This document shows positions 2,399 through 30,489 of a stretch of DNA of 46,599 nucleotides, in pieces (position 1 is the first letter of the stretch; each line of letters starts with the position of its first letter). Both the position numbers and the translations under genes were made by a program. Source of the DNA: Acidimicrobiia bacterium (lineage in GTDB: Bacteria; Actinomycetota; Acidimicrobiia; Spongiisociales; UBA5794). The notes under the pieces were generated by a model. The model was not told where the DNA came from. It was given only the letters and a program-made list of their open reading frames with translations, and searched no databases. The stretch is from the NCBI GenBank assembly GCA_024762335.1, contig JANTHO010000016.1, positions 1 through 46,599 on the forward strand. Direction: 5' to 3'.

Positions 2399-4182
2399 AC
2401 GGGTACTCCTAGCTTGGGCACTCCAACCCCTTCCCACACTGCCATGGACAGCGCATTCGGGGGGCAACGTTCGATGCACAGGCCGCAACGGATGCAGGCC
2501 GACTCGTCGAGCAGCAACGCGGTGCCGCCTTCCGGGTCGTTGATCTCCTCAGACGGCACCAGTGAGATGAGATCGAGCGGACAGACGTCGGCGCAGAGGG
2601 CGCAAAGCACACAGGCGTCGACATCGAGTTCGATATTCGCGAAACAGCGCAGGCAGCGGGCTGCTTCGCAACGGGCTTGCTGCTCGGTGAAGCCGAGTTC
2701 GACTTCGGCGAGGCCCATCCGACGATCCGTCGCGAGGACCGGGACGGAGATCCGCTGCTCCCGATCGTACGGGTCCGTGAGTCGATGGAACTGGGCGAGT
2801 TCGACCAGTTGACCCTTGACCTCGGGCTCTTGCTCCCCAGTGAATGCCGTGTGGATGTCGGCGGCGACCTTCCGCCCGTCGGCGATCGCCTCGATGAGCG
2901 TACGCGGCCCTCGGGCGGCGTCCCCACCTGCCCAGACGTTGTCGATAGAGGTGCGCAGTGTCGTGTCGTCGATCTCGATCGTCCTTCGGGGTGAAATGGC
3001 CGGGCCCGACGGTCCGAGCGCATCGATGTCGATGGCCTGGCCGATGGCGAGGATGACGGTGTCGGCTTCGAAAGATTTGACATCGTCGGGGTCGAAGACG
3101 GGAGCGAAACGGCCCTCCTCATTGAAGACGGAGACGACGCCGATCGTCTCGAGGCCCGTCACTTTGCCGTCTTCCGTGAGGATCCGTGCGGGACCGCGCC
3201 GGTGGATGAAGGTGATGTCTTCTGCCGCCGCTTCCTCCAGTTCGAACGGAGATGCGGGCATCTCCTCTTCGGATTCGAGGGAGAACACGGTCACGCTCGT
3301 CGCGCCCTCCCGTGCGGCCGTTCGTGCGACGTCGAGCGCTTCGGTCATCATCTCCGGGTCCTCGTCTCCGGTCTCCGGCAAACGGGCTTCCGCGGCGTAG
3401 TCCTCGCGTCGAAGCGCGGAGCGGGCGGCGTCCATGGCGACGTCGCCGCCGCCGATGACGATCACCCGCTCGCCGACGTCCACGTGGTAGCCCTGATTGA
3501 CATTGATGAGGAACTCGATGGCCTTGAGCACGCCGTCGGCGTCGTGCCCTTCCATGTCGAGACCCCGCCCGAGGGATGCGCCGTAGGCGAGGAACAGGGC
3601 ATCGTGGCGTTCACGGAGTTGGTCGAATGTGACGTCTTCACCGAGTCGGGTATTGAGGTGCACGTCGACTCCGAGGCCGACGATCGCGTCGAGTTCAGAC
3701 TGAAGAAGCTCCCGATCCAGGCGGTATTCGGGGATGCCGAGCACCATCATTCCACCGAGTTGCGCCGTAGCCTCGTAGACCGTCACCCGATATCCGTGCC
3801 GGCGCAGGTCGTGGGCACACGACATGCCGGCGGGGCCGCCGCCGATGATGCCGACACTCTCGGTGCGGTCGGGGCCCTTGTGCGAAGCGACGGTCTTCCA
3901 GGTGTCGCTCCCCGCTTCGACACCATACTTCTCCGTGACGAAGCGTTTCAGGGCTCGGATGGCGATGGGTTGATCGATCTCTCCCCTCCGGCACGCGTCT
4001 TCACAGGGAGCGGCACACACGCGGCCACACACCGAGGCGAACGGGTTCGGGAGTCGTGCCGTCAGGTAGGCGAATTCGTCGTCGCCGTCGGCGATTGCTG
4101 CCACATACGCGCCGGCGTTCGTGTGGACGGGACAGGCTGCGAGACAGGGGATGTTCTCGTCGTAGAAGCTCAGCGGCTGCAT
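2395..4182 (-). CDS. GltD/NfnB-like FAD-NAD(P)H oxidoreductase with N- and C-terminal Fe-S domains
   Basis: 595 aa. The N-terminal domain has Cys at 13, 17, 52, 56, 60 and 64, as in the Fe-S domain of glutamate synthase small subunit and dihydropyrimidine dehydrogenase. The FAD site GIIGGGPAGM is near 111-120 and the pyridine-nucleotide site VIGGGDVAMDAA near 242-253. C-terminally, two ferredoxin-type CxxCxxCxxxC motifs lie at 524-534 and 563-573. No glutamate synthase large subunit is nearby. The gene lies inside the cytochrome bc operon, between a small membrane protein and petB, overlapping both. ATG 4182 is coupled to the upstream stop by a one-base overlap. I infer it moves electrons between NAD(P)H or ferredoxin and the quinone/bc system, but its partner is not visible from sequence. 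Confidence 0.8.
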   Translation of the reverse strand: MQPLSFYDENIPCLAACPVHTNAGAYVAAIADGDDEFAYLTARLPNPFASVCGRVCAAPCEDACRRGEIDQPIAIRALKRFVTEKYGVEAGSDTWKTVASHKGPDRTESVGIIGGGPAGMSCAHDLRRHGYRVTVYEATAQLGGMMVLGIPEYRLDRELLQSELDAIVGLGVDVHLNTRLGEDVTFDQLRERHDALFLAYGASLGRGLDMEGHDADGVLKAIEFLINVNQGYHVDVGERVIVIGGGDVAMDAARSALRREDYAAEARLPETGDEDPEMMTEALDVARTAAREGATSVTVFSLESEEEMPASPFELEEAAAEDITFIHRRGPARILTEDGKVTGLETIGVVSVFNEEGRFAPVFDPDDVKSFEADTVILAIGQAIDIDALGPSGPAISPRRTIEIDDTTLRTSIDNVWAGGDAARGPRTLIEAIADGRKVAADIHTAFTGEQEPEVKGQLVELAQFHRLTDPYDREQRISVPVLATDRRMGLAEVELGFTEQQARCEAARCLRCFANIELDVDACVLCALCADVCPLDLISLVPSEEINDPEGGTALLLDESACIRCGLCIERCPPNALSMAVWEGVGVPKLGVPV

Positions 4183-4538
4183 CAGATGAGGCGTTCCTTC
4201 TGCGCAAGGCGCATTCCGACGAAAGCCACTGCGAGAGCGACGAACCAGACCCCGGACGCAATGAGCCCGAGGATCGTGTCCCACGTGGAAGGCGACATCA
4301 GACCAGAGTAGAGGTCGCGGATCACGGCTAGGGAGTTCGGTTCCATGAGATACGACGGGAACCAGACCGTGGCGATCACGATGTAGAGGACGATGACCGC
4401 CACTTTCAGCCACACCTGGGGCCTGGTAAAGGTGCCGTCCTCACCGCGTTTGGCTCCGAGCGGTCCGAGCATGGCAACGAGCGAAGAGCCGTCGGTTTCC
4501 GAAGATGAGGATGTGGACGAAACGTTGTCTGTGGACAT
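4182..4538 (-). CDS. Small two-helix membrane protein, first gene of the bc operon
   Basis: 118 aa, family not recognised. A Ser/Thr-rich N-terminus is followed by a hydrophobic helix (about 45-62) and a second near 92-110, ending in a basic tail. It is the promoter-proximal gene and overlaps the Fe-S/FAD oxidoreductase by one base (TGATG). That fixed position suggests it anchors the otherwise soluble oxidoreductase at the membrane next to cytochrome b. This is inference from position only. Confidence 0.7.
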   Translation of the reverse strand: MSTDNVSSTSSSSETDGSSLVAMLGPLGAKRGEDGTFTRPQVWLKVAVIVLYIVIATVWFPSYLMEPNSLAVIRDLYSGLMSPSTWDTILGLIASGVWFVALAVAFVGMRLAQKERLI

Positions 4539-4577
4539 GACTAAACCCTAATTGCCGTGGTCGACGTTACCCAAATA

Positions 4578-4600
4578 GCAGGGTCGAAAGACTCTACCAG
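4578..4600 (-). promoter_or_regulatory. 23-bp motif shared with the upstream region of the cytochrome c lipoprotein gene
   Basis: This stretch matches 5174-5196 at 20 of 23 positions. On the minus strand both read CTG-R-TAGAGTCTT followed by a GACCCTGC end. It lies 40-62 bases before the first gene of the bc operon. The internal TAGAGT (4591-4596) could be a -10 box or the motif could be a regulator site common to the two cytochrome transcription units. No good -35 is visible for this copy. Confidence 0.4.
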
Positions 4601-4619
4601 ATGTTGACTCTCGCACATG

Positions 4620-4655
4620 TGAGAGGCGGCCGCTCGGGGGAGCAGCCGCCTCTCA
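4620..4655 (-). terminator. Hairpin terminator of the cytochrome c lipoprotein gene
   Basis: An 11-bp perfect stem (4620-4630 with 4645-4655) with a 14-nt loop begins 22 bases after the minus-strand stop at 4678. No T-run follows. It separates the cytochrome c gene from the bc operon promoter region. Confidence 0.65.
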
Positions 4656-4677
4656 TACCAACCGAATTCTGTTGTGC

Positions 4678-5076
4678 CTACTGGAGTGTCCTGAGATAGT
4701 CGACAACATCAGCGATCTCTTCGTTGGTCAAGGATGGGTTTCCGCCCTTCGCCGGCATGTCGACACCGGTCGTGTTGGCGGGGTCGGTCGTGGACCGTCC
4801 GGCGACGATGAACAATATGAGGTCCGCGTTCGATTGGGACTGGATGAATTCATTGTTGCGCATGTCGGGCCCGAGACCGTCGACGCCTTCGGCATTCTGC
4901 CCGTGGCAGGCGGAGCAGGTCGTCTTGAAGACTGCTTGCCCGTTGGCGGCACCACCGACATCGCCGCCGGTCGCGACCGTCGTCGTGGTCGTCGGGGTGC
5001 TCACATCCGAGTAGCCGCACGCAGCGGCCCCGAGGGCAAGTGCAGCCAGAAGCATCACCCATTTTCTGGTCTTCAT
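4678..5076 (-). CDS. Lipoprotein cytochrome c
   Basis: 132 aa. The signal peptide ends in a lipobox (LGAAAC), so the mature protein is lipid-anchored outside the membrane. A Thr-rich linker precedes a cytochrome c domain with heme motif CSACH and a likely Met ligand in GVDMPAKGG. Start ATG 5076 has AAAGGTG upstream. An in-frame ATG five codons earlier overlaps that site and is less likely. It sits between cimA and the bc operon and has its own terminator. A mobile electron carrier between the bc complex and an oxidase is plausible. Confidence 0.85.
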   Translation of the reverse strand: MKTRKWVMLLAALALGAAACGYSDVSTPTTTTTVATGGDVGGAANGQAVFKTTCSACHGQNAEGVDGLGPDMRNNEFIQSQSNADLILFIVAGRSTTDPANTTGVDMPAKGGNPSLTNEEIADVVDYLRTLQ

Positions 5077-5173
5077 CGTTTCACCTTTCATGGTTCTGTA
5101 TCGTCCCCCGCACGGGCGGCCCAGCCGATCTGCACCGTACCCGACATCGTCCCATCGCGTGCCGTATCGACGC

Positions 5174-5196
5174 GCAGGGTCCGAAGACTCTATCAG
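5174..5196 (-). promoter_or_regulatory. Second copy of the 23-bp cytochrome-gene upstream motif
   Basis: 20/23 identity to 4578-4600, located about 100 bases before the cytochrome c lipoprotein start. On the minus strand a possible TTGACG (overlapping the cimA stop) is followed 19 bases later by TACACT, just upstream of the motif, so the motif would fall around or downstream of the transcription start. Confidence 0.4.
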
Positions 5197-5221
5197 TGTA
5201 CCGAACGGGGGGTCGGTCGCG

Positions 5222-6817
5222 TCAAGCGATCGGGGCGCCGACGAGGGGTGCCGTTTGCTCCTGGTGACGCAGCAAACCGATAACCAGGCCTTCGCACACT
5301 GCCTGCCAGGATGCGTCGATGATGTTCTGATGCACGCCGATCGTCCCCCAGGACCCCTCGCCGTCGCTGTGCCGGCAGAGCACCCGCACACGGGCCGCCG
5401 ATCCGTCGGACGAATCGAGGTCGCGAACGCGATAGTCGGTGAGGCGAACCCCGGCCAGATGCGGGTAGGCGTCACAGAGTGCCGCACGCAACGCCCCGTC
5501 GATCGCCGCGACGGGACCATCGCCCTCCCTCGTCGTCACGATCCGCTCGCCGTTCACCGTGACCTTCACCGTTGCCTCGGCGGTCACTTCGCCGGACCGA
5601 TGCTCGACGAAGACCCGGTAGGACTCCAGATCGAAGAACGGCTGAATCCACCCCTGCACGTCGCGGACGAGAAGCTGGAACGAACCGTCTGCAGCCTCGA
5701 AGTGGTAGCCGTCGTGTTCGAGATCCTTGACCCGGTCCACGACGGTCTGCGCCTCCTCAGGAGACAGGTCGACACCGGTGTCGCGTGCTTTGGCGAGGAT
5801 CGTGGACCGCCCGGCGAGTTCGGACACGACCATACGCGTCGTGTTGCCGACCGCCGAGGGAGAGAGATGCTCGTAGGCATCGGGGCGTCGGGCAAGCGCC
5901 GATGTGTGCAGGCCGGCTTTGTGTGTGAATGCCGACGTGCCGACGAACGGCGTGTGGGCGTCGAGCGTCAGGTTGATGTACTCCGCGATGTGATGCGATG
6001 CGGTCGTTAGGTGAGGCAGTCGGTTGGTGGGGATCGACTCCAACCCCATTTTCAGCGACAGGTTCGGGATCACGGAGCAGAGGTCGGCATTCCCCGTGCG
6101 CTCGCCGTAGCCGTTCATGCATCCCTGCACCTGCACGACGCCGGCGCGGACGGCGGCAAGACTGTTCGCAACCGCTGTTCCCGAATCGTTGTGGAAATGA
6201 CATCCGAGCGCGGCTTCGGGAACGGCCGCACCGACCTCGCCGACGATGCGCCCGGCATCGAAGGGCAGCGTCCCTCCATTCGTGTCGCAGAGAACGACCC
6301 GCTCGGCACCCGCTTCATGTGCCGCCCGGACCGTGGCGAGAGCGAAGTCCGGATTCGACCGGTAACCATCGAAGAAGTGTTCCGCATCGAAGAACACCCG
6401 TTTCCCGACCGAGCGAAGATACCGGACCGAGTCGGCGATCATCTCGATCGCCTCGTCGAGCGTCGTGCGGAGCGCATGTTCGACGTGGTAATCCCAGGAC
6501 TTGCCGACCAGGCACACGACGTCCGTGTCGGCGGCGACCAGAGCCGCGAGTTGGGCATCATCGGCGGCATCGGCGCCGGCGTGCCTCGTCGAACCGAAAG
6601 CGACGAGCGTCGCCGTCTCGAGATCGAGTTCGGTCTTGGCCCGACGGAAGAACTCGTCGTCCTTCGGGTTCGCTCCCGGCCAACCACCCTCGATGTAGGC
6701 CACACCGAGGTCGTCGAGGAGCCGGCTGATGGCCAGTTTGTCGCCGGCGGTGAGTGAGATGCCCTCCTGCTGGGTTCCGTCTCTCAGGGTCGTGTCGTAG
6801 ATCTCGATCGTGGTCAT
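5222..6817 (-). CDS. cimA: (R)-citramalate synthase
   Basis: 531 aa, the usual length for CimA. The N-terminal HMGL-like TIM barrel begins with YDTTLRDGTQQEG and includes CHFHNDSGTAVAN (metal-binding His residues) and GYGERTGNA. The C-terminal part is a LeuA-type allosteric domain. The enzyme condenses pyruvate with acetyl-CoA to citramalate, the threonine-independent entry into isoleucine synthesis. Barrel motifs alone cannot fully exclude 2-isopropylmalate synthase, but the upstream leader peptide with three Ile codons supports citramalate synthase. Start ATG 6817 follows GGAG. An upstream in-frame ATG (6877) would fall in the attenuator. Confidence 0.9.
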   Translation of the reverse strand: MTTIEIYDTTLRDGTQQEGISLTAGDKLAISRLLDDLGVAYIEGGWPGANPKDDEFFRRAKTELDLETATLVAFGSTRHAGADAADDAQLAALVAADTDVVCLVGKSWDYHVEHALRTTLDEAIEMIADSVRYLRSVGKRVFFDAEHFFDGYRSNPDFALATVRAAHEAGAERVVLCDTNGGTLPFDAGRIVGEVGAAVPEAALGCHFHNDSGTAVANSLAAVRAGVVQVQGCMNGYGERTGNADLCSVIPNLSLKMGLESIPTNRLPHLTTASHHIAEYINLTLDAHTPFVGTSAFTHKAGLHTSALARRPDAYEHLSPSAVGNTTRMVVSELAGRSTILAKARDTGVDLSPEEAQTVVDRVKDLEHDGYHFEAADGSFQLLVRDVQGWIQPFFDLESYRVFVEHRSGEVTAEATVKVTVNGERIVTTREGDGPVAAIDGALRAALCDAYPHLAGVRLTDYRVRDLDSSDGSAARVRVLCRHSDGEGSWGTIGVHQNIIDASWQAVCEGLVIGLLRHQEQTAPLVGAPIA

Positions 6818-21841: not shown

Positions 21842-23275
21842 CTAGTGGAGCACCGGGAGGCCGGTGATCGCACCGATGATGTCGGCTGCTCGTTCCACCG
21901 CTGCAGCAGGTCGCAACGTGCCGGTGATGACCGCCTCCACCATCTGTTGGAGTTGGATCGAGATCAGTGGATATCCGACAATGTGTGGGCGGTTGACCGC
22001 CGTTGAGAAGAGCCGGGCCGTCTCGAGGACAAACGGCCGTGCCTGTTCGACTAGATCGAGGGAGGACCGTCGTGCCGGGATCATCGGCCGGCCCGCCGTG
22101 CGTGCTGCGAGTTGGGCCGGCGTGGTCAACTGTTCGAGTAGCGCCATGGCGGCAACGGGGTGGCGTGACTGACGGAGTATCACGTAGGCCATGGCACCCG
22201 CGGCCGTAGCAGGAGCACCGTGGGGTCCGCTTGGGAACGGAGCGAATACGAAGCGGTCCCACACAGTCTCGAGGGTGAGGTCCGCCGCATCCGCGATCAC
22301 CTCGGCCTCGTAGCTCCCTCCGATGCCGATGGCTGCCCTACCGGTTCCAAGGTGTCTCGGGGCCGTCAGCCAGCCGTGATTGACGACATCGCCGCTCATC
22401 GTGCCGTCTTCGATGAACTGACGGAGAAGGCGCAGGGTTTCGACGGTCTCTGCGTTGTCGATTCCGACGCCGTCGCCGATGATCCGGACACCGTTGGATC
22501 CGAGCAGGGCAGTGAGGCAGTACGTCGTCGTCTCGGCCGCAGCGAGTCCGCCCGGCATGACGATCGCATGGTTGCCGTTCGGCATCAGGGGTTGGATGGA
22601 TTGAGCGAGGGATCGGAGTTCGCCCCACGTCGAAGGAATGGTCGCACCAACACGATCGATCTGGGCACGGTCGTACCAGACACCGGCGACGTTGATCTCC
22701 TCCGGCACGGCATGCACGTGCCGATCGAAACGCATGCCGTCCACGAACGTTGGATCGAAGTCGGCGCGGTACTCGGATTCGATCCAACGGGGATCGAGAT
22801 CGTCGAGCGCATGAATGACGTGAGCATCGGCGAGCTCGGCAATCCACACCTCGTCGATGAGGGCGATGTCGGGTGCCGTGCCTTCTGCAACCGCCCGCAT
22901 CAAGCATTCAGGAAGTTCCGTGTAGTCGACCACCGTCACATCGGTGTGTGGCGGGGCGGCTCCGGAAATGCGCTCTGCCCGGATTGCGTCGGAGACGACG
23001 ATTCGAAGCGGCGGCCGGTTGCGATCGTCCGATCGCCACTCCGGGTTGACGAATGTGCCTCTCCGACGCATTCTCACGATCACCCCTTCCTCGGCAAGTT
23101 CCGAGAGAGCGCGGTGGACGGGGGTTCGGCTGATCGAGTAGAGGTCGCAGATTTCAGCCTCCGTCGGGAGGCGATCGCCGGGCGCGTACCGTCCCGCTTC
23201 GATTTCGGAGAGGAGCAGCAGTTTGAGCTGGTGATAGAGGGGGACTGCCGAGTCCGCGTCGAGGATGCCGGTCAT
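21842..23275 (-). CDS. GntR DNA-binding domain fused to a solute-binding-protein fold: sugar-responsive regulator
   Basis: 477 aa, no signal peptide. Residues about 10-80 form a GntR winged helix (LYHQLKLLLLSEIEAGRY, GDRLPTEAEICDLY, SRTPVHRALSELAEEGVI). The rest resembles ABC-transporter family 1 solute-binding proteins (APDIALIDEVWIAELAD, GVWYDRAQIDRVGATIPSTW, GRAAIGIGGSYEAE). Most GntR proteins instead carry FCD, UTRA or LacI-like sensors. It lies 25 bases after the phosphorylase gene and divergent from a sugar ABC operon, so it probably senses the same glucoside in the cytoplasm. ATG 23275 follows GGGGGAG. An earlier ATG (23416) is inside the upstream gene. Confidence 0.85.
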   Translation of the reverse strand: MTGILDADSAVPLYHQLKLLLLSEIEAGRYAPGDRLPTEAEICDLYSISRTPVHRALSELAEEGVIVRMRRRGTFVNPEWRSDDRNRPPLRIVVSDAIRAERISGAAPPHTDVTVVDYTELPECLMRAVAEGTAPDIALIDEVWIAELADAHVIHALDDLDPRWIESEYRADFDPTFVDGMRFDRHVHAVPEEINVAGVWYDRAQIDRVGATIPSTWGELRSLAQSIQPLMPNGNHAIVMPGGLAAAETTTYCLTALLGSNGVRIIGDGVGIDNAETVETLRLLRQFIEDGTMSGDVVNHGWLTAPRHLGTGRAAIGIGGSYEAEVIADAADLTLETVWDRFVFAPFPSGPHGAPATAAGAMAYVILRQSRHPVAAMALLEQLTTPAQLAARTAGRPMIPARRSSLDLVEQARPFVLETARLFSTAVNRPHIVGYPLISIQLQQMVEAVITGTLRPAAAVERAADIIGAITGLPVLH

Positions 23276-23300: not shown

Positions 23301-24998
23301 CTATCGGCTTGAGTCGATGAGCCAAAGCATTCCCCATGGACCGAGAGCGTACCCGTCCCCCGCGGTGCGGAAGCGGTAACCGCGCGGGTTCTCCCCATCC
23401 CGGGCGTCGATCTCAACGGCAGAGTCGGAGACGTTCACAAAGACTCGGCCGCGTTCACCGCTCGGCGCCTGTCGCTCGATGCCGATGACACCGGAAGGCG
23501 TCGGGAGCACCCGCTGGTCGGCGTCGGGGTGAAACGCAGGAGTGGAACGGCGCCAGAGCAGCATCTCTTCGATAGCCCGGAGCGAACGAGATGCACGCGT
23601 GCTCGTGTCGGCCAGCGTGTGGCCCAGGCGATCCGCGCGGAAGCGACCCCGGTTGATCGATCGAGCGGAGCCGGTCTGCTCCATCAACTGGATATCGTTC
23701 GGACTCGCCAACAGCGAGTGGATGTAGACGGCCGGGATGCCGCTTGTGGCAAACATGATGGCGTGGGACGCAAGGTGTCGTGCCAACGCATCGTCTCCCA
23801 TGGTGGATCCGCGGATGAGGTCGTACCAGGTGGCGTTCAGCTCATACGGCGATGATGTTCCGTCGGGGTTGCGCCTGCGGTTCGCCCGGCCACCGTGTCG
23901 TTCTGCTTCGGCGACGAGACGCTCGACGTCGGTCGGGTCGACGAGACCTTCGAGCGGTCGGACACCGACACCGTCATGAGATGCAAGGAAGTTGAGATAG
24001 GTGGTCCCGGGTGGAATGCCGTTTGCCGATTCGAGCCACCGTTCCAGATCCTCTGTCTGGCCCGTGACGAAGGCATGGAGGGTGAGAGGAGGCAGCGTGA
24101 AGCGATAGACCATATCGGCTTCTGGCACGGATCCGTCCCCGAGGTAGCTGATGTTCTCATCGTGGGGGACGTTCGTCTCACTCACCAGAATGACATTCGG
24201 GTAGGTGTCGTCGAGACAGGACCGGAGGAACTGGATGATCGCATGGGTCTGCGGCATGTGGATGGACGGTGTCCCCTCTTCTTTCCACAAGAAGCACGCT
24301 GCGTCGAGGCGGATCGCTGCGGCACCGCGCCGGGCGTACGTAAGGAGGACCGAGAGAACGTACAGGAGGACCTCGGGATTCCGATAGTCCAGGTCGGCCT
24401 GATCGGCGGAGAACGTCGTCCAGACCCATTCATCGCCGCGTACCGTTGTAAACGGTGTGAGCAGCGGATGCTCTCTGGCGCGAACGGTCGCGGACAGGTC
24501 GGCGTCGGGGGATGCCGTGCGAAAGAAGTCGCGGAAGGCCGGGTCGCCGTCCCTCCAACGGGCGAAGCAGTCCGACTGAGCCGAGCAGTGGTTGATGACG
24601 GCGTCGACCATGAGTCGCGCATCACGGCCGATGGCCTCGATGTCCGACCAGCTACCGAACTCGTCGAACACGGCGGAGTAGTCCGTGATGCTGAATCCTT
24701 CGTCTGAACTCGACGGGAAGAACGGCAAGACGTGGATGCCGTTGAATGCGGGCGCTGCGTGCATGGAGAAGAAGTCGTGGAGGGAGGCAAGTGGCGGGCG
24801 ATTGTCGGAGCGGATCTGGTCGGGGTAGGAGATCACCCACGCGTCACGCTCATCCCACCGAGTTCCCCGCATACCCTGTTTTGGCTGGTGCTCGCTGAGA
24901 AGCGCATCGACCCGTGGCATGAGCGCGGCGGAGTGCTCTGCTCCGTAAATTTCGGTGAGGAGTGACGCCGACCGAAAACGCTCTCTTTTAGCACTCAT
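23301..24998 (-). CDS. GH13_18 glycoside phosphorylase (glucosylglycerate/sucrose phosphorylase-like)
   Basis: 565 aa. Alpha-amylase barrel with GIHVLPFFPSSSDEGFSI, then nucleophile Asp232 (IRLDAACFLWKEEGT), acid/base Glu274 (SETNVPHDENISY) and Asp342 (ASHDGVGVRPLEG). These stretches look closest to glucosylglycerate phosphorylase (YcjM of E. coli) and related sucrose phosphorylases, which split an alpha-glucoside with phosphate to give glucose-1-phosphate. E. coli ycjM likewise sits beside a solute-binding protein and two permease genes. The acceptor cannot be fixed by eye. ATG 24998 appears leaderless. Confidence 0.85.
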   Translation of the reverse strand: MSAKRERFRSASLLTEIYGAEHSAALMPRVDALLSEHQPKQGMRGTRWDERDAWVISYPDQIRSDNRPPLASLHDFFSMHAAPAFNGIHVLPFFPSSSDEGFSITDYSAVFDEFGSWSDIEAIGRDARLMVDAVINHCSAQSDCFARWRDGDPAFRDFFRTASPDADLSATVRAREHPLLTPFTTVRGDEWVWTTFSADQADLDYRNPEVLLYVLSVLLTYARRGAAAIRLDAACFLWKEEGTPSIHMPQTHAIIQFLRSCLDDTYPNVILVSETNVPHDENISYLGDGSVPEADMVYRFTLPPLTLHAFVTGQTEDLERWLESANGIPPGTTYLNFLASHDGVGVRPLEGLVDPTDVERLVAEAERHGGRANRRRNPDGTSSPYELNATWYDLIRGSTMGDDALARHLASHAIMFATSGIPAVYIHSLLASPNDIQLMEQTGSARSINRGRFRADRLGHTLADTSTRASRSLRAIEEMLLWRRSTPAFHPDADQRVLPTPSGVIGIERQAPSGERGRVFVNVSDSAVEIDARDGENPRGYRFRTAGDGYALGPWGMLWLIDSSR

Positions 24999-25005
24999 GT
25001 ATAAC

Positions 25006-25034
25006 AAAATAGCCGGAAAAGAAAGCGATGTCGA
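25006..25034 (-). promoter_or_regulatory. Promoter of the phosphorylase-regulator operon (leaderless)
   Basis: On the minus strand TCGACA (25034-25029), 17 bases, TATTTT (25011-25006), then 7 bases to the ATG. The surrounding 60 bases are unusually AT-rich for this genome. The spacing implies a leaderless mRNA. Confidence 0.6.
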
Positions 25035-25045
25035 CCAATTTTCGC

Positions 25046-25075
25046 TTGCACGCGCCGAAGTATTGTTGTTACAGT
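25046..25075 (+). promoter_or_regulatory. Promoter of the sugar ABC operon
   Basis: TTGCAC (25046-25051), an 18-base spacer, TACAGT (25070-25075). The -10 is embedded in the palindrome at 25067-25081, so a repressor bound there would block it. The remaining leader to 25178 contains a small GC hairpin (25139-25153) but no other gene. Confidence 0.55.
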
Positions 25076-25081
25076 GAAACA
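25067..25081. promoter_or_regulatory. Operator-like palindrome TGTTaCAgTGaAACA
   Basis: 15 bp with dyad symmetry (TGTT-CA-TG-AACA matching, centre and one pair mismatched). It overlaps the plus-strand -10 in the divergent promoter region. It is the best candidate site for the GntR/solute-binding fusion regulator encoded by the neighbouring operon. Confidence 0.5.
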
Positions 25082-25178
25082 AATGGGGTGAGGGTCGGTG
25101 TCCGTGCCGGCAGCGCCCCGGCTTGTTGGAAGTCAATTCCCCGCCCGGCGGGGACCGTCAGGACTAGGAGAGAGATCC

Positions 25179-26627
25179 ATGAAACGACTGCGTTTCATGT
25201 TGCTGATGCTGGTAGCCCTCGCGCTCGTCGCGGCGGCGTGCTCAAGCAGCAGCGACGATACAACCACCACAGCAGCCGGTGGTGAGACAACAACTACGGC
25301 CGCTCCCGATACCGGAGGCGGCGAGGCCGTCACGATCAAGTTCTGGAGCACAGAGACCCAACCGGCGCGTCTCCAGAAGACGCAGGCGATCATCGACGGG
25401 TTCACGGCGGCGACGGGCATCAATGTGCAGCTGACTGCCACCGACGAGGATGCTCTGCCACAGCTCATGCTCACGAACGCGGCGTCCGGGACATTGCCGG
25501 ATGTCGTCTTCCACCCGCTCGACTTCACTGTCGGATGGGCAAATGCCGGACTTCTCGACACTGCCGCAGCCGCGGAAGTCGTTGATGAACTCGGTGCAGA
25601 CACGTTCTCACAGGGAGCCCTCTCGATGGTTACCGTCGACGGGAACCCGGCAGCCGTTCCATCGGACGGGTGGGGCCAGTTGCTCATCTACCGGAAGGAC
25701 CTGTTCGACGCGGCCGGACTCGAGAAGCCGGACACGTTCGCGAAGATTCAGGCCGCCGCGGAAGCCCTGAACGATCCGGGCAACAACATGTACGGGATCA
25801 CCGCATCGAACGATCCGAGCGCCGTCTTCACACAGCAGACGTGGGAACACTTCGCTCTGGCCAACGGATGCCAACTGGTCGATGATTCCGGAACCGTCAC
25901 TCTGGATAGCCCCAACTGTGTTGAGGCGATCGACTTCTACACGAACCTGCTGAACAACTACAGTCCGGTGGGTCTCCAGGATGTCGTGTCGACTCGAGCA
26001 ACGTACTTCGCCGGACAGGCCGCGATGATCGTGTGGTCACCGTTCATCCTCGACGAGATGGCAGGTCTGCGTGACGCTGCGCTGCCGACCTGTGAGCAGT
26101 GTGCGTCGGATCCCGCGTACCTCGCGAAGAACAGCGACTTCGTTCCGTCGTTCGCCGGTCCGAGCGGTGCACCGGCCCAGTATGGACAGGTGTCCTACAT
26201 GGGCATCGGCAAGACCGACAAGACAGATGCCGCGAAGGAGTTCGTCAAGTACTGGCTCTCCGAGGGCTACGTCGACTGGCTTTCGGTTGCCCCCGAGGGC
26301 AAATTCCCGATGCGTCAGGGCACGGCGGACAACCCGACCGAGTACATCGATGGCTGGCGGACGCTCGAGACCGGCGTGGATCGCCGGGCACCGTTGAGCG
26401 ACTTCTACAGCGAAGAGGTCATCAACGATCTCATTACCGGATCGAACAACTTCGCCCGGTGGGGTTTCACCCAAGGACAGGGTGAACTCGTCGGGGCCGT
26501 GTACTCGACGTTGATCGTTCCACAGACGCTCGATGAGGTCTTCGCCGGCATGTCGGCGGAAGATGGTGCCGCGGAGATGCAGGCACGAGCCGAAGAAGAG
26601 CAGGCATTGATCGCAGACGAGGGGTAA
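25179..26627 (+). CDS. Sugar ABC transporter solute-binding lipoprotein
   Basis: 482 aa. The signal peptide has lipobox VAAAC, followed by a Ser/Thr-rich linker. The family 1 solute-binding fold starts at VTIKFWSTETQ and includes TLPDVVFHPLDF and GWGQLLIYRKDLFDAAGL. Cys pairs (NGCQ...SPNC; CEQC) may form disulfides. It delivers the sugar to the two downstream permeases. ATG 25179 has AGGAG eight bases upstream. The in-frame upstream GTG (25098) would mask the signal peptide. Confidence 0.93.
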   Translation: MKRLRFMLLMLVALALVAAACSSSSDDTTTTAAGGETTTTAAPDTGGGEAVTIKFWSTETQPARLQKTQAIIDGFTAATGINVQLTATDEDALPQLMLTNAASGTLPDVVFHPLDFTVGWANAGLLDTAAAAEVVDELGADTFSQGALSMVTVDGNPAAVPSDGWGQLLIYRKDLFDAAGLEKPDTFAKIQAAAEALNDPGNNMYGITASNDPSAVFTQQTWEHFALANGCQLVDDSGTVTLDSPNCVEAIDFYTNLLNNYSPVGLQDVVSTRATYFAGQAAMIVWSPFILDEMAGLRDAALPTCEQCASDPAYLAKNSDFVPSFAGPSGAPAQYGQVSYMGIGKTDKTDAAKEFVKYWLSEGYVDWLSVAPEGKFPMRQGTADNPTEYIDGWRTLETGVDRRAPLSDFYSEEVINDLITGSNNFARWGFTQGQGELVGAVYSTLIVPQTLDEVFAGMSAEDGAAEMQARAEEEQALIADEG

Positions 26628-26700: not shown

Positions 26701-27675
26701 GTGGCGGCCACGCAGACGCCAGACATGAAAGACAGGCGGCGGCGCAAGACGCCAATGGCGCGAAGAGAGTCGCGGTTCGGTGTCAACCTCATCCTCCCAG
26801 CCGTTCTCGTGGTCGCGCTGCTCGTCGTGTTCCCTCTGCTGTGGAACGTGGCGCTCAGTTTCCAGAAAGCGCGGCTGATCGACATCCAGGACGTGTCGAT
26901 CTGGGGCTTCACGCCGACGCTGAACAACTACAGGACGGTCGTCGGTGCTCATGACTTCTGGCCGGTGCTCAAGACGACGTTCATCTACACGATCGCCGGA
27001 TCGATCCTCTCCATCGGCCTCGGTCTCTGGGCAGCCCTCTCGCTCCAGAAGGCGTTCAAGGGGCGCGCCTTTGTACGAGGCCTCGTGCTCTTCCCGTACG
27101 TGGTCCCGGTGATTGCCGCCGCGTTCGTGTGGCAGGTCATGTTGAACCCCCAGTTCGGAATCGTGAACGAATGGCTCGGGCGTTTCGGGGTTCCCGCCAT
27201 CGACTTCCTGCGAACCCGATCGTATGATCTCAGCGTCTTCGGACTCTTCCATGTGTCGATCCCGCTGGCGTTGACCACCGTCATCGTGTTCGAGGGATGG
27301 CGCTACTTCCCGTTCGCGTTCTTGTTCATCCTCGCCGCCCTCCAGTCCATGCCGGAAGACGTCAACGAAGCGGCGCTCGTCGACGGTGCGACGCTGAGCC
27401 AGAAGTTCCGATACGTGACGCTGCCGGCGCTCGCTCCCGTTCTGTCGGTTCTCTTCCTGTTGCGATTCATCTGGACGTTCAACAAGTTCGATGATGTCTA
27501 TCTGCTGACCGGGGGAGGCTCCGGTACAGAGGTGATCACCGTCAAGATCGTCGACTGGATGCTGGGACGGGGCAACGTGGGAGCTGCGGCCGCCCTTGGG
27601 ATGATTCTTGCGGCAATCCTCCTGGTCGTCGTGGGCCTCTACTTCAAATTCTTCTACAAGGAGGAGACGGCGTGA
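26701..27675 (+). CDS. Sugar ABC transporter permease (MalF/UgpA type)
   Basis: 324 aa, six predicted helices after a basic cytoplasmic N-terminus (residues 1-30). The cytoplasmic EAA loop, EAALVDGATLSQKFRYVTLP, contacts the ATPase. GTG 26701 has GGAGG five bases upstream. It overlaps the second permease by 4 bases. No ATPase gene is present in the operon, so a shared MsmK-type ATPase elsewhere is likely. Confidence 0.94.
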   Translation: MAATQTPDMKDRRRRKTPMARRESRFGVNLILPAVLVVALLVVFPLLWNVALSFQKARLIDIQDVSIWGFTPTLNNYRTVVGAHDFWPVLKTTFIYTIAGSILSIGLGLWAALSLQKAFKGRAFVRGLVLFPYVVPVIAAAFVWQVMLNPQFGIVNEWLGRFGVPAIDFLRTRSYDLSVFGLFHVSIPLALTTVIVFEGWRYFPFAFLFILAALQSMPEDVNEAALVDGATLSQKFRYVTLPALAPVLSVLFLLRFIWTFNKFDDVYLLTGGGSGTEVITVKIVDWMLGRGNVGAAAALGMILAAILLVVVGLYFKFFYKEETA

Positions 27676-28538
27676 CCCGCGCAGAATTCGAGGAACGCTT
27701 CTTCGGGACGCTGAAGTGGATGAGCATCGTGTTCTTCGCCGTCATCGCCCTCTTCCCCCTCCTCTACATGCTGGCGCTCTCCTTCAAGCCGATCCAGGAT
27801 CTGTTGCTGGATCCCGGGAAATGGTGGCCCACGCTCGAACAGATCACGGGATTTGAGACGTACCGGGCCGTCCTCCGCCCCGTCGATCAGGGAGGATTCG
27901 GCTTCGTCACCTTCATCCGGAACAGTTCGATCGTCGCTGTGTCGACGGTGATCCTGACCCTCGCCGTCGGCATCCTGGCCGCCTATTCGGTGGCTCGTGT
28001 GAACTTCTTCGGTCGGCAGACGGTCAGCATCGGGATGATCCTCGTGTATCTGTTCCCCGTAGTGATCGTGGCCATCCCCCTGTTCGTCATGTTCTCTCGC
28101 ATGGGGATCCGCGACTCGCTCTATGGCCTCGTCATCGTCTACCTCGCCTCCACACTTCCGGTGACGATGTACATGCTGAGAGGCTACTTCCAGTCCATTC
28201 CCGTCTCGCTGGAAGAGGCTGCGATGGTGGACGGTCTCTCGCGTTTTGGCGTCATTCGGAAGATCACTTTCCCTCTGGCCGCGCCGGCGATCGCCGCGGT
28301 CGCCCTCTATGTCTTCATGATCGCCTGGAACGAATTCCTCTACGCACTGCTCTTCGTTCTGGAGAAGCGTGAGCTTTGGACCCTGTCTCTCGGCGTGAAC
28401 CAGCTCAACACGCAGGAAGTGCCCAAGACCATGCTGATGGCCGGGTCGGTGATCATCTCGCTGCCCATCATTGTGCTGTTCTTCGCTGCCGAGCGGTTCC
28501 TGACTGAGGGCCTCACCGCCGGCGGTGTCAAGGGGTAG
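27672..28538 (+). CDS. Sugar ABC transporter permease (MalG/UgpE type)
   Basis: 288 aa, six helices, EAA motif EEAAMVDGLSRFGVIRKITFP. The start GTG 27672 overlaps the previous stop (GTGA), indicating translational coupling. It pairs with the preceding permease to form the membrane channel for the phosphorylase substrate. Confidence 0.94.
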   Translation: MTRAEFEERFFGTLKWMSIVFFAVIALFPLLYMLALSFKPIQDLLLDPGKWWPTLEQITGFETYRAVLRPVDQGGFGFVTFIRNSSIVAVSTVILTLAVGILAAYSVARVNFFGRQTVSIGMILVYLFPVVIVAIPLFVMFSRMGIRDSLYGLVIVYLASTLPVTMYMLRGYFQSIPVSLEEAAMVDGLSRFGVIRKITFPLAAPAIAAVALYVFMIAWNEFLYALLFVLEKRELWTLSLGVNQLNTQEVPKTMLMAGSVIISLPIIVLFFAAERFLTEGLTAGGVKG

Positions 28539-28541
28539 TCG

Positions 28542-29753
28542 ATGAACATCGGCTTGGTTTCGACCCGGTTCGCCGGGCTCGATGGCGTCTCATTGGAGAC
28601 GGCGAAGGTTGCCGACGCGCTCGGCGACGCCGGTCATACCTTCGCGTGGTACGCCGGAGAGCTGTGGTCGGGCTTCGCTCCCGGCATGGTCGAGCCGGAG
28701 GCGCACTTCGCGACCGCAGAGAATGAGGCGATCCAGGCCGCGGCGTTCCACGGTGGCGACCCGGATACGACGCTCTTGGAGATCGATGCGACGGCTGCGC
28801 GACTGAGAGTCTCTCTCGACCGATTCGTCGAGTCGTACGCGGTCGAAGCCCTGCTCATCGAAAACGCTCTGGCGATTCCGATGCAGTTGCCGCTGGCTGT
28901 GGCATTGACCCGACTGCTCGCAGAGACCGGGATTCCCGCCGTTGCTCACCATCACGACTTCGCCTGGGAGCGGGCCCGATTCGACCACTGCACCGTTCCT
29001 CGGATCCTCCAGGAGTTCTTTCCCCCGAGCCTGGAGAACCTTTCCCACGTGGTGATCAACACCGATGCTCGTGACGATCTCTTCCGGCGGAGGGGAATCG
29101 AGTCCCTCGTCGTTCCGAACGTCATGGACTTCGAGCGAGGACCGGGGAACACGGGAGATGGAAGCAGATTCCGACATCGGGCCGGTCTCACCGACCGGGA
29201 CATCGTGTTGTTGCAGCCGACGCGGATCATCGAGCGGAAAGGCATCGAGTACACGATCGAGCTCGCCGCTCGCCTCAGCGATCCCACCGTGAGCGTTGTC
29301 ATTACCCACGGTGGCGACGTCGACATCACCTATTGGGAGGGACTGCAACGTCTTGCTGCGGATCTCGATGTGGATCTTCGCCTCGTCCCCGCCGGGTTGG
29401 AGCGCTCCGCTCTCGGAGATGCCTATGCAGGAGCGGATCTCGTGTGCTTCCCGAGCCTCTATGAGGGCTTCGGCAACGCGTTGCTCGAAGCGTTCTTCTA
29501 TCGGCGCCCGGTCTTTGTGAACCGGTACCCGGTCTACCGGCGGGACATCGCTCCGACCGGCGTTCGTTGCATCGAAATCGACGGTGAACTCACCGAAGGC
29601 GCCGTCGCGGCCGCTGCTCGGTGGCTCGCCGATCCGGCCGCGGCAGAGTCGGCGATCGAGACGAACTACCAGATCGGGGTGGAACACTTCTCCTACCGCG
29701 TGGCTCGCGACGTGTTCGGGGAGGCGTTTGGGAACGTGGTTTCGAGACGGTAG
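28542..29753 (+). CDS. GT4-family glycosyltransferase
   Basis: 403 aa, GT-B fold. The N-terminal acceptor domain begins MNIGLVSTRFAGLDGVSLET. The C-terminal nucleotide-sugar domain has LLQPTRIIERKGIEYTIELA and the retaining-GT motif PSLYEGFGNALLEAFFYRRP. It starts three bases after the permease stop, so it belongs to the uptake operon. Pairing a synthase with a phosphorylase and importer suggests turnover of one glucoside or an elongated version (for example mannosylglucosylglycerate). The substrate is unproven. Confidence 0.85.
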   Translation: MNIGLVSTRFAGLDGVSLETAKVADALGDAGHTFAWYAGELWSGFAPGMVEPEAHFATAENEAIQAAAFHGGDPDTTLLEIDATAARLRVSLDRFVESYAVEALLIENALAIPMQLPLAVALTRLLAETGIPAVAHHHDFAWERARFDHCTVPRILQEFFPPSLENLSHVVINTDARDDLFRRRGIESLVVPNVMDFERGPGNTGDGSRFRHRAGLTDRDIVLLQPTRIIERKGIEYTIELAARLSDPTVSVVITHGGDVDITYWEGLQRLAADLDVDLRLVPAGLERSALGDAYAGADLVCFPSLYEGFGNALLEAFFYRRPVFVNRYPVYRRDIAPTGVRCIEIDGELTEGAVAAAARWLADPAAAESAIETNYQIGVEHFSYRVARDVFGEAFGNVVSRR

Positions 29754-29799: not shown

Positions 29800-30489
29800 A
29801 TGAGAACCATCGGAATCCTTGGCGGCATGTCGTGGGAGTCGTCGATCGAATACGAGCGGATCATCAACGAGGCCGTTCGCGAGAGACTCGGCGGTGTGCA
29901 CTCGGCCGACCTGCTGATCCGTTCCTACGACTTCGACCAGATCGAGACGTTGCAGGCGGCGGGGAACTGGGAGGCGGCCGGCCAGCTCCTTGCCGACGAC
30001 GCCGCCCGCCTCGAGGAGGCCGGGGCCGATGTGATCGTGCTCGCTACGAACACGATGCACAAGGTCGCCCGACAGATCGAGGACGTCACGAGGATCCCGT
30101 TCATCCACATCGCAGACGCCACGGCGGATGCTGTGAAAGCGGAAGGCATCCAGGCGGTCGCCCTCCTCGGAACCCGATACACGATGGAGCAGGATTTCTA
30201 CCGGGGACGGCTGACCGCCCACGGTCTCGAAGTCCTGGTACCCGGAGCGGGGGACCGCACGTTCGTCCACGATGTGATCTTCAACGAGCTCGTCCAGGGA
30301 CGGATCGTGGAGGAGTCCAAACAGCGGTATCTGGAGATCATCGCCCGTCTTCAGGAGCGAGGCGCCGAAGGGGTGATCGCCGGCTGCACCGAGATCGAAC
30401 TCCTCGTGACACCGGACGACGTGGATCTTCCGTACTTCCCGACGGCCCGGATCCACGCGATGGCCGCCGTCGACTTCGCACTGCAGTAG
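29800..30489 (+). CDS. Aspartate/glutamate racemase family protein
   Basis: 229 aa. IGILGGMSWESSIEYERIINEAV at the N-terminus, first catalytic-site region LATNTMHKVA and second GCTEIELLV. Asp/Glu racemases use two Cys. Here the first is replaced by Thr (ATNTMH) while the second Cys is kept, as in the YgeA-type broad-spectrum branch and some inactive or epimerase relatives. ATG 29800 follows TACCGT by 7 bases and is probably leaderless. It is adjacent to purH but separated by about 85 bases. Confidence 0.85.
   Translation: MRTIGILGGMSWESSIEYERIINEAVRERLGGVHSADLLIRSYDFDQIETLQAAGNWEAAGQLLADDAARLEEAGADVIVLATNTMHKVARQIEDVTRIPFIHIADATADAVKAEGIQAVALLGTRYTMEQDFYRGRLTAHGLEVLVPGAGDRTFVHDVIFNELVQGRIVEESKQRYLEIIARLQERGAEGVIAGCTEIELLVTPDDVDLPYFPTARIHAMAAVDFALQ

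Follow-up and report, generated by a model that had tools for sequence, protein, structure and literature searches.

Transcriptional regulators whose sensor domains carry Pfam solute-binding signatures are known (PMC9602780). The closest precedent for the protein described here is the SgrR family (E. coli SgrR and V. cholerae DsvR), whose members are likewise cytoplasmic one-component regulators in which a helix-turn-helix at the N-terminus precedes an ABC solute-binding domain at the C-terminus; DsvR, an SgrR homolog, joins a helix-turn-helix to SBP_bac_5 (PMC13060122), and a small molecule is believed to act as the switch of SgrR (PMC7786190). Both carry SBP_bac_5 and another type of helix-turn-helix, and SgrR activates a small RNA, whereas the present regulator (hereafter GntR-SBP) has a GntR head, a domain of the SBP_bac_1/8 type, an operator-like repeat of its own and glycerate-glycoside genes around it. 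Its head is closest to HutC-type members of the GntR superfamily (HutC, YvoA), but members of the HutC subfamily (HutC, YvoA, DasR) carry a UTRA domain that is absent here, and their operators are short and of the GT-TA-AC type, in contrast to the 22-bp repeat reported below. AraR couples a GntR head to a LacI/GalR-type, periplasmic-binding-like sensor that reads a sugar; the sensor of GntR-SBP is of the SBP_bac_1/8 type instead and gives no Peripla_BP match. Proteins of the SBP_bac_1/8 families normally work outside the cytoplasm. While regulators built from a helix-turn-helix and SBP_bac_5 are known, the variant with GntR and SBP_bac_1/8 appears to be new: no description of it was found in the open-licence literature.

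A related arrangement of pathway genes is the E. coli ycjM-ycjNOP locus where, as in the locus studied here, a glucosylglycerate phosphorylase gene stands beside genes for a related binding protein and two permeases. The repressor of the E. coli locus is YcjW, of the LacI family, in whose place our locus has the GntR-SBP fusion; a LacI-type regulator is found in one relative (L103). Our locus lies in a 46,599-nucleotide stretch of DNA from an Acidimicrobiia bacterium, the whole of which is called the window in the following.

A GntR head joined to a whole solute-binding domain

The regulator gene (window 21842–23275, minus strand) encodes 477 residues, which were characterised by Pfam searches, a whole-genome match and profile comparison with solved structures. 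Residues 13–76 (about window 23048–23239) match the GntR winged helix (PF00392, 67.4 bits against a cut-off of 27), which places the protein in the GntR superfamily. The remainder matches SBP_bac_8 at residues 113–407 (PF13416, 70 bits, cut-off 27) as well as SBP_bac_1 (PF01547, 62 bits, cut-off 26), the two models spanning residues ~110–407. Since a profile of 19 regulator proteins covers complete solved sugar-binding proteins, the solute-binding domain can be regarded as whole (residues ~92–471): profile positions 92–471 align with the transport binding protein 5ci5 (E = 3e-38), followed by MalE3 (2e-32), SmoF (7e-31) and then GacH and LpqY. The domain thus belongs in full to the SBP_bac_1/8 families, except that a GntR head takes the place of the exported or lipid-anchored form that delivers to permeases. 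With both domains above their Pfam cut-offs, the initial annotation of this protein as a GntR winged helix fused to a family-1-type ABC solute-binding domain is borne out. A domain search of the C-terminal part, named beforehand as the point at which this assignment might fail, left it standing, as no UTRA, FCD, aminotransferase or LacI-type (Peripla_BP) domain was found in the regulator by Pfam even at E ≤ 1; nor did the SgrR-type N-terminal domain or SBP_bac_5 match at that threshold. The protein consequently has neither the C-terminal UTRA domain of the HutC subfamily nor the C-terminal LacI-type domain of AraR-type regulators. By hydropathy, no signal peptide or membrane stretch was seen in the regulator or its relatives, in agreement with the cytoplasmic location claimed for it; within the first 60 residues, the maximum 19-residue hydropathy was 0.93, as opposed to 2.32 for the lipoprotein P0002 of the same locus.

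Such a domain need not bind a small ligand. It might serve as a dimerisation scaffold or read the transporter by protein contact, and cytoplasmic sensors of transporter state do exist, for example MalT with MalK. An AlphaFold2 model of the regulator, built from six sequences only, was of low confidence (pTM 0.30, mean pLDDT 48) and gave no view of the cleft, which is compatible with this explanation. We nevertheless consider it highly improbable: conservation extends over the whole domain in 18 relatives, the most distant at 35% identity, with invariant residues in both lobes, and a fixed protein contact sits poorly with partner transporters of different families.

The open reading frame is complete, and it is free of stop codons in the 18 full-length relatives (35–73% identity) that make up the alignment, all of them from Actinomycetota and three from other families outside the order (42–47% identity). 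Among the 138 genomes of the order, 17 had a relative (the window genome being counted, and the match in G492 being partial); a sample of 396 genomes across the phylum Actinomycetota gave 5. The matching named records were MAGs of Acidimicrobiia or other Actinomycetota, and the plasmid and phage collections that we searched held no full-length fusion. Long open frames in G011 and G028, considered as GH13-GntR-SBP triple fusions, were rejected as such because they overlap the divergent lipoprotein gene in antisense orientation.

In a tree of 48 binding domains, the 19 regulator domains formed a single clade (98/94), and P0002 and its kin grouped with E. coli YcjN (100/96). The proposal that the sensor had been recruited from the neighbouring lipoprotein, which was to be judged by the phylogeny of the regulator domain and this 482-residue protein, is contradicted by these results: the two did not group, and a tree joining the type-I regulator domains with their own lipoproteins was rejected (p-AU 8e-5). 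The separate clade and the rejected grouping indicate that the fusion is old and was not made from the binder of its own locus. That the regulator clade as a whole and the YcjN type are deep sisters was not rejected (p-AU 0.18), so that an ancient origin of the regulator domain from some transporter binder stays likely. A third type of binder, described below under setting III, came out as sister to the regulators (97/95), a join that is uncertain because of its long branch. What can be retained of the earlier proposal is that one fold serves for capture outside (P0002) and, fused to a DNA-binding head, also inside the cell; in a profile comparison, the regulator and the lipoprotein-type binder shared a fold at 20% identity (E = 3e-15).

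Gene context and likely ligand

In the window, a GH13-gntR operon on the minus strand is divergent from a lipoprotein-permease-permease-GT4 operon on the plus strand. The GH13_18 enzyme gene comes first in its operon (23301–24998, minus strand; TIGR03852, 180 bits, under the cut-off of 334), and the regulator gene is second, 25 bp away. The opposite operon encodes the lipoprotein solute-binding protein P0002, of the YcjN type (25179–26627, plus strand; SBP_bac_1, 85 bits; best solved relative E. coli YcjN, 8vqk), ABC permease A (26755–27675, plus strand; PF00528 and gene call), ABC permease B (27672–28538, plus strand; PF00528) and a GT4 glycosyltransferase (28542–29753, plus strand). The latter is a distant relative of mannosylglucosylglycerate synthase, its 212 bits against NF041101 not reaching the cut-off of 640. 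The regulator had initially been described as divergent from an operon starting with a periplasmic-type binder; this is correct for the two operons, but the regulator gene does not itself adjoin the lipoprotein gene. An Asp/Glu racemase-family gene (29800–30486, plus strand) follows immediately after GT4. This order is limited to the window and its closest relative (L101, 83% identity), the other loci lacking it, and the racemase-family gene may therefore be a genus-level addition.

A (T/S)ETN motif and a glutamate in loop A separate glucosylglycerate phosphorylase from sucrose phosphorylase (PMC7178133). The GH13 enzyme of the window has SETN and YELN, hence both glucosylglycerate phosphorylase signatures, and is by signature a predicted 2-O-glucosylglycerate phosphorylase; in the five loci that were checked, (S/T)ETN was present in all and YELN in three. 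E. coli ycjN, whose product is the best solved relative of P0002, follows ycjM, the glucosylglycerate phosphorylase gene of that organism. Judged by these signatures and neighbours, the locus reads as one for glucosylglycerate uptake and breakdown. Both glucosylglycerate and sucrose had been put forward as ligands. The glucosylglycerate type agrees with the conserved context and the shared operator-like repeat, whereas sucrose was rejected as the likely substrate and is disfavoured as the ligand because the GH13 enzyme has the signatures of glucosylglycerate phosphorylase and not those of sucrose phosphorylase.

Three settings were distinguished around the regulators, with genes called by a simple codon-usage caller, so that start codons in the relatives are approximate. 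Setting I (window, L022–L026, L062 and L065–L067) comprises, in varying order, the GH13 phosphorylase, a YcjN-type binder, two permeases and GT4. Setting II (L029–L031) comprises an MGH1-type hydrolase, another binder, permeases and an ATPase; in L030 and L031, the regulator also has a glycerate kinase gene (PF02595) close by. The best solved relatives of the MGH1-type hydrolase are TTHA0978 and the M. hassiacum hydrolase, which are known mannosylglycerate and glucosylglycerate hydrolases; against the NCBIfam glucosylglycerate hydrolase model it scored 395 bits, under the cut-off of 550. Setting III (L063, L064 and L068) has a third binder with permeases, and L063 also carries a phosphorylase of 41% identity. 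Relatives that lack the regulator have, next to the phosphorylase, a DUF4147-MOFRL protein, which is of the glycerate 2-kinase type. A glycerate glycoside is suggested as the common denominator by the occurrence of unrelated enzymes for one kind of compound and of kinases for the product. Regulator and phosphorylase, present in 17 and 19 of the 138 genomes, were found together in 13, compared with about 2.3 expected (P = 9e-11, relatedness ignored).

Several neighbours of the relatives deserve mention. Directly downstream of the regulator in L068 lies a gene for a GH125-like alpha-mannosidase (4844–6745, minus strand), hinting at mannosylated glycerate glycosides among the substrates. In one genus, a protein of ~612 residues is conserved beside the GntR-SBP/GT4 pair and adjoins GT4 (L065, 5921–7756, minus strand; also L027, L066 and L067); it had no match in Pfam, NCBIfam or solved structures. 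The most divergent GntR-SBP copy (L028, 10177–11571, plus strand; 35–36% identity) has no sugar genes in its surroundings and may have another ligand.

Operator-like repeats and a model of repression

A palindromic motif search of 15 regions in front of partner genes, with one site per region and near-copies left out, yielded the 22-bp inverted repeat TTTGTcaT-N6-AtgACAAA (TTTGTcaTaacgttAtgACAAA). It scored 313.6 bits, as compared to a mean of 157.7 and a maximum of 174.2 bits for 20 dinucleotide-preserving shuffles searched with equal effort. The best PWM match of the window is ATTGTTGTTACAGTGAAACAAA (25062–25083, 21.9 bits) and the second-best TTTAGCACTCATGTATAACAAA (24987–25008, 13.2 bits), neither with an assigned strand, and the third-best place in the 46.6 kb reaches only 4.8 bits. 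The genome (2.42 Mb) contains a single copy of the strict core WTTGT-N12-ACAAW and none of its reversed control. By eye, the main repeat covers the -10-like TACAGT of a promoter-like TTGCAC-18-TACAGT of the lipoprotein operon (25046–25075, plus strand), which the consensus scan missed. The second repeat overlaps two features: the start codon of the GH13 gene and the -10-like hexamer, TATTTT, in a promoter-like TCGACA-17-TATTTT of the GH13-gntR operon (25006–25034, minus strand), identified by consensus scan only. The spacing of the two repeats is 75 bp, or some seven helical turns; L022, L023, L026 and L062, which likewise have a pair across the intergenic gap, show 64–74 bp. DNA looping between the repeats is conceivable.

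The repeat is associated with the regulator. In one genus, the promoter of the phosphorylase and binder genes lies ~4 kb from the regulator, and the repeat is still there (L066, 22.7 bits). It is also present in stretches matching L066 (L099, 22.0 bits; L100, 23.3 bits) and in L101, from the genus of the window (20.5 bits). These three are on contigs other than that of the regulator and were not counted as distant targets, since contig ends and the gene order of L066 suggest a single locus split by the assembly. Five similar loci from genomes lacking the regulator (L106–L109 and L095) had no site of at least 9 bits; they are arranged otherwise, their phosphorylase and binder genes being read in one direction. 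L105, from a genome in which no regulator was detected, has the repeat at 21.4 bits, and its contig breaks off inside the permease gene, immediately ahead of the position that the regulator occupies in its sister L066.

The repeat could also belong to another regulator, for instance a Crp-like protein. Crp sites are 22 bp long with a 6-bp centre, and the length and spacing of the repeat are nearer to this type than to the short sites of GntR proteins, whose half-sites are usually closer, a point that counts against assigning it to GntR-SBP. However, a strict repeat that is unique in the genome is unlike the site of a global regulator, and the five similar loci in genomes without GntR-SBP lack it, which makes us regard the Crp-like candidate as quite unlikely.

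We consider it likely that the regulator is a cytoplasmic repressor acting on two 22-bp operators from which it is released by a glycerate glycoside. According to this model, the one-component transcription factor would dimerise and use its GntR winged helices to bind the two inverted repeats between the divergent operons. The first of them would sit on the promoter driving lipoprotein-permease-GT4, the second on both promoter and start of GH13-gntR; as the latter is its own operon, the regulator would be autoregulated. The C-terminal solute-binding domain would sense a cytoplasmic glycerate glycoside, such as glucosylglycerate, mannosylglucosylglycerate or a close product, and closure of the domain on this ligand would shift the DNA-binding heads and free the operators, inducing import as well as phosphorolytic cleavage that yields glucose 1-phosphate and glycerate. 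In favour of the model, the partner genes vary while the chemistry stays constant (phosphorylase, MGH1-like hydrolase, glycerate kinase, GH125). Against it stand the repeat of L105, the surroundings of L028, L102 and L104, two phosphorylase loci of regulator-bearing genomes in which no site was found, and L103, where none lies between genes.

The same protein and target genes could instead mean a ligand-dependent activator, or control of the synthesis and accumulation of a compatible solute via GT4 rather than of its catabolism. SgrR is an activator, GT4 is part of the operon, and in L027 and L065–L067 the GT4 gene is divergent from the regulator. Moreover, the position of the repeat is not fixed, because in L029–L031 it lies downstream of or at the -10-like hexamer (by eye), unlike in the window. 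The repeats of the window, on the other hand, cover -10-like hexamers and the GH13 start region, a typical repressor position, and with hydrolases, phosphorylase, glycerate kinase and importers the gene content speaks for uptake and breakdown, so that we hold activation or control of synthesis to be unlikely. Under the repressor model, the GT4 gene could still bring synthesis as well as breakdown under control.

More broadly, the relatives might constitute an undescribed GntR subfamily, born once by an intracellular joining of GntR and SBP, which kept its ligand class and 22-bp operator while transporter and enzyme were swapped for unrelated ones (GH13_18 phosphorylase, MGH1-type hydrolase, other binders), the regulator being the stable core of glycerate-glycoside use in these bacteria; we hold this view to be as probable as not. 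If true, the sensor would stay constant while enzyme and transporter change, and the sensor rather than the enzyme would mark the pathway. The protein would represent a flytrap switch of modular build, acting in the cytoplasm on a defined operator and useful as a biosensor part. The in-vivo turnover of glucosylglycerate-type compounds is unclear (PMC7178133), and the model would provide a regulator for them and a route to the inducer.

Some phosphorylase loci deviate from the common pattern. The phosphorylase gene of one subgroup stands behind a GH1 glycosidase gene and is convergent to the regulator (L023, 984–4018, plus strand). As the region preceding the corresponding GH1 gene of L102 showed no repeat, the phosphorylase of that subgroup may be controlled otherwise. 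In L103, which lacks an intergenic site, the phosphorylase/YcjN-type locus carries the LacI-family regulator mentioned above (3802–4839, plus strand); the same genome also has a GntR-SBP locus, and hence two types of regulator for what is seemingly one pathway.
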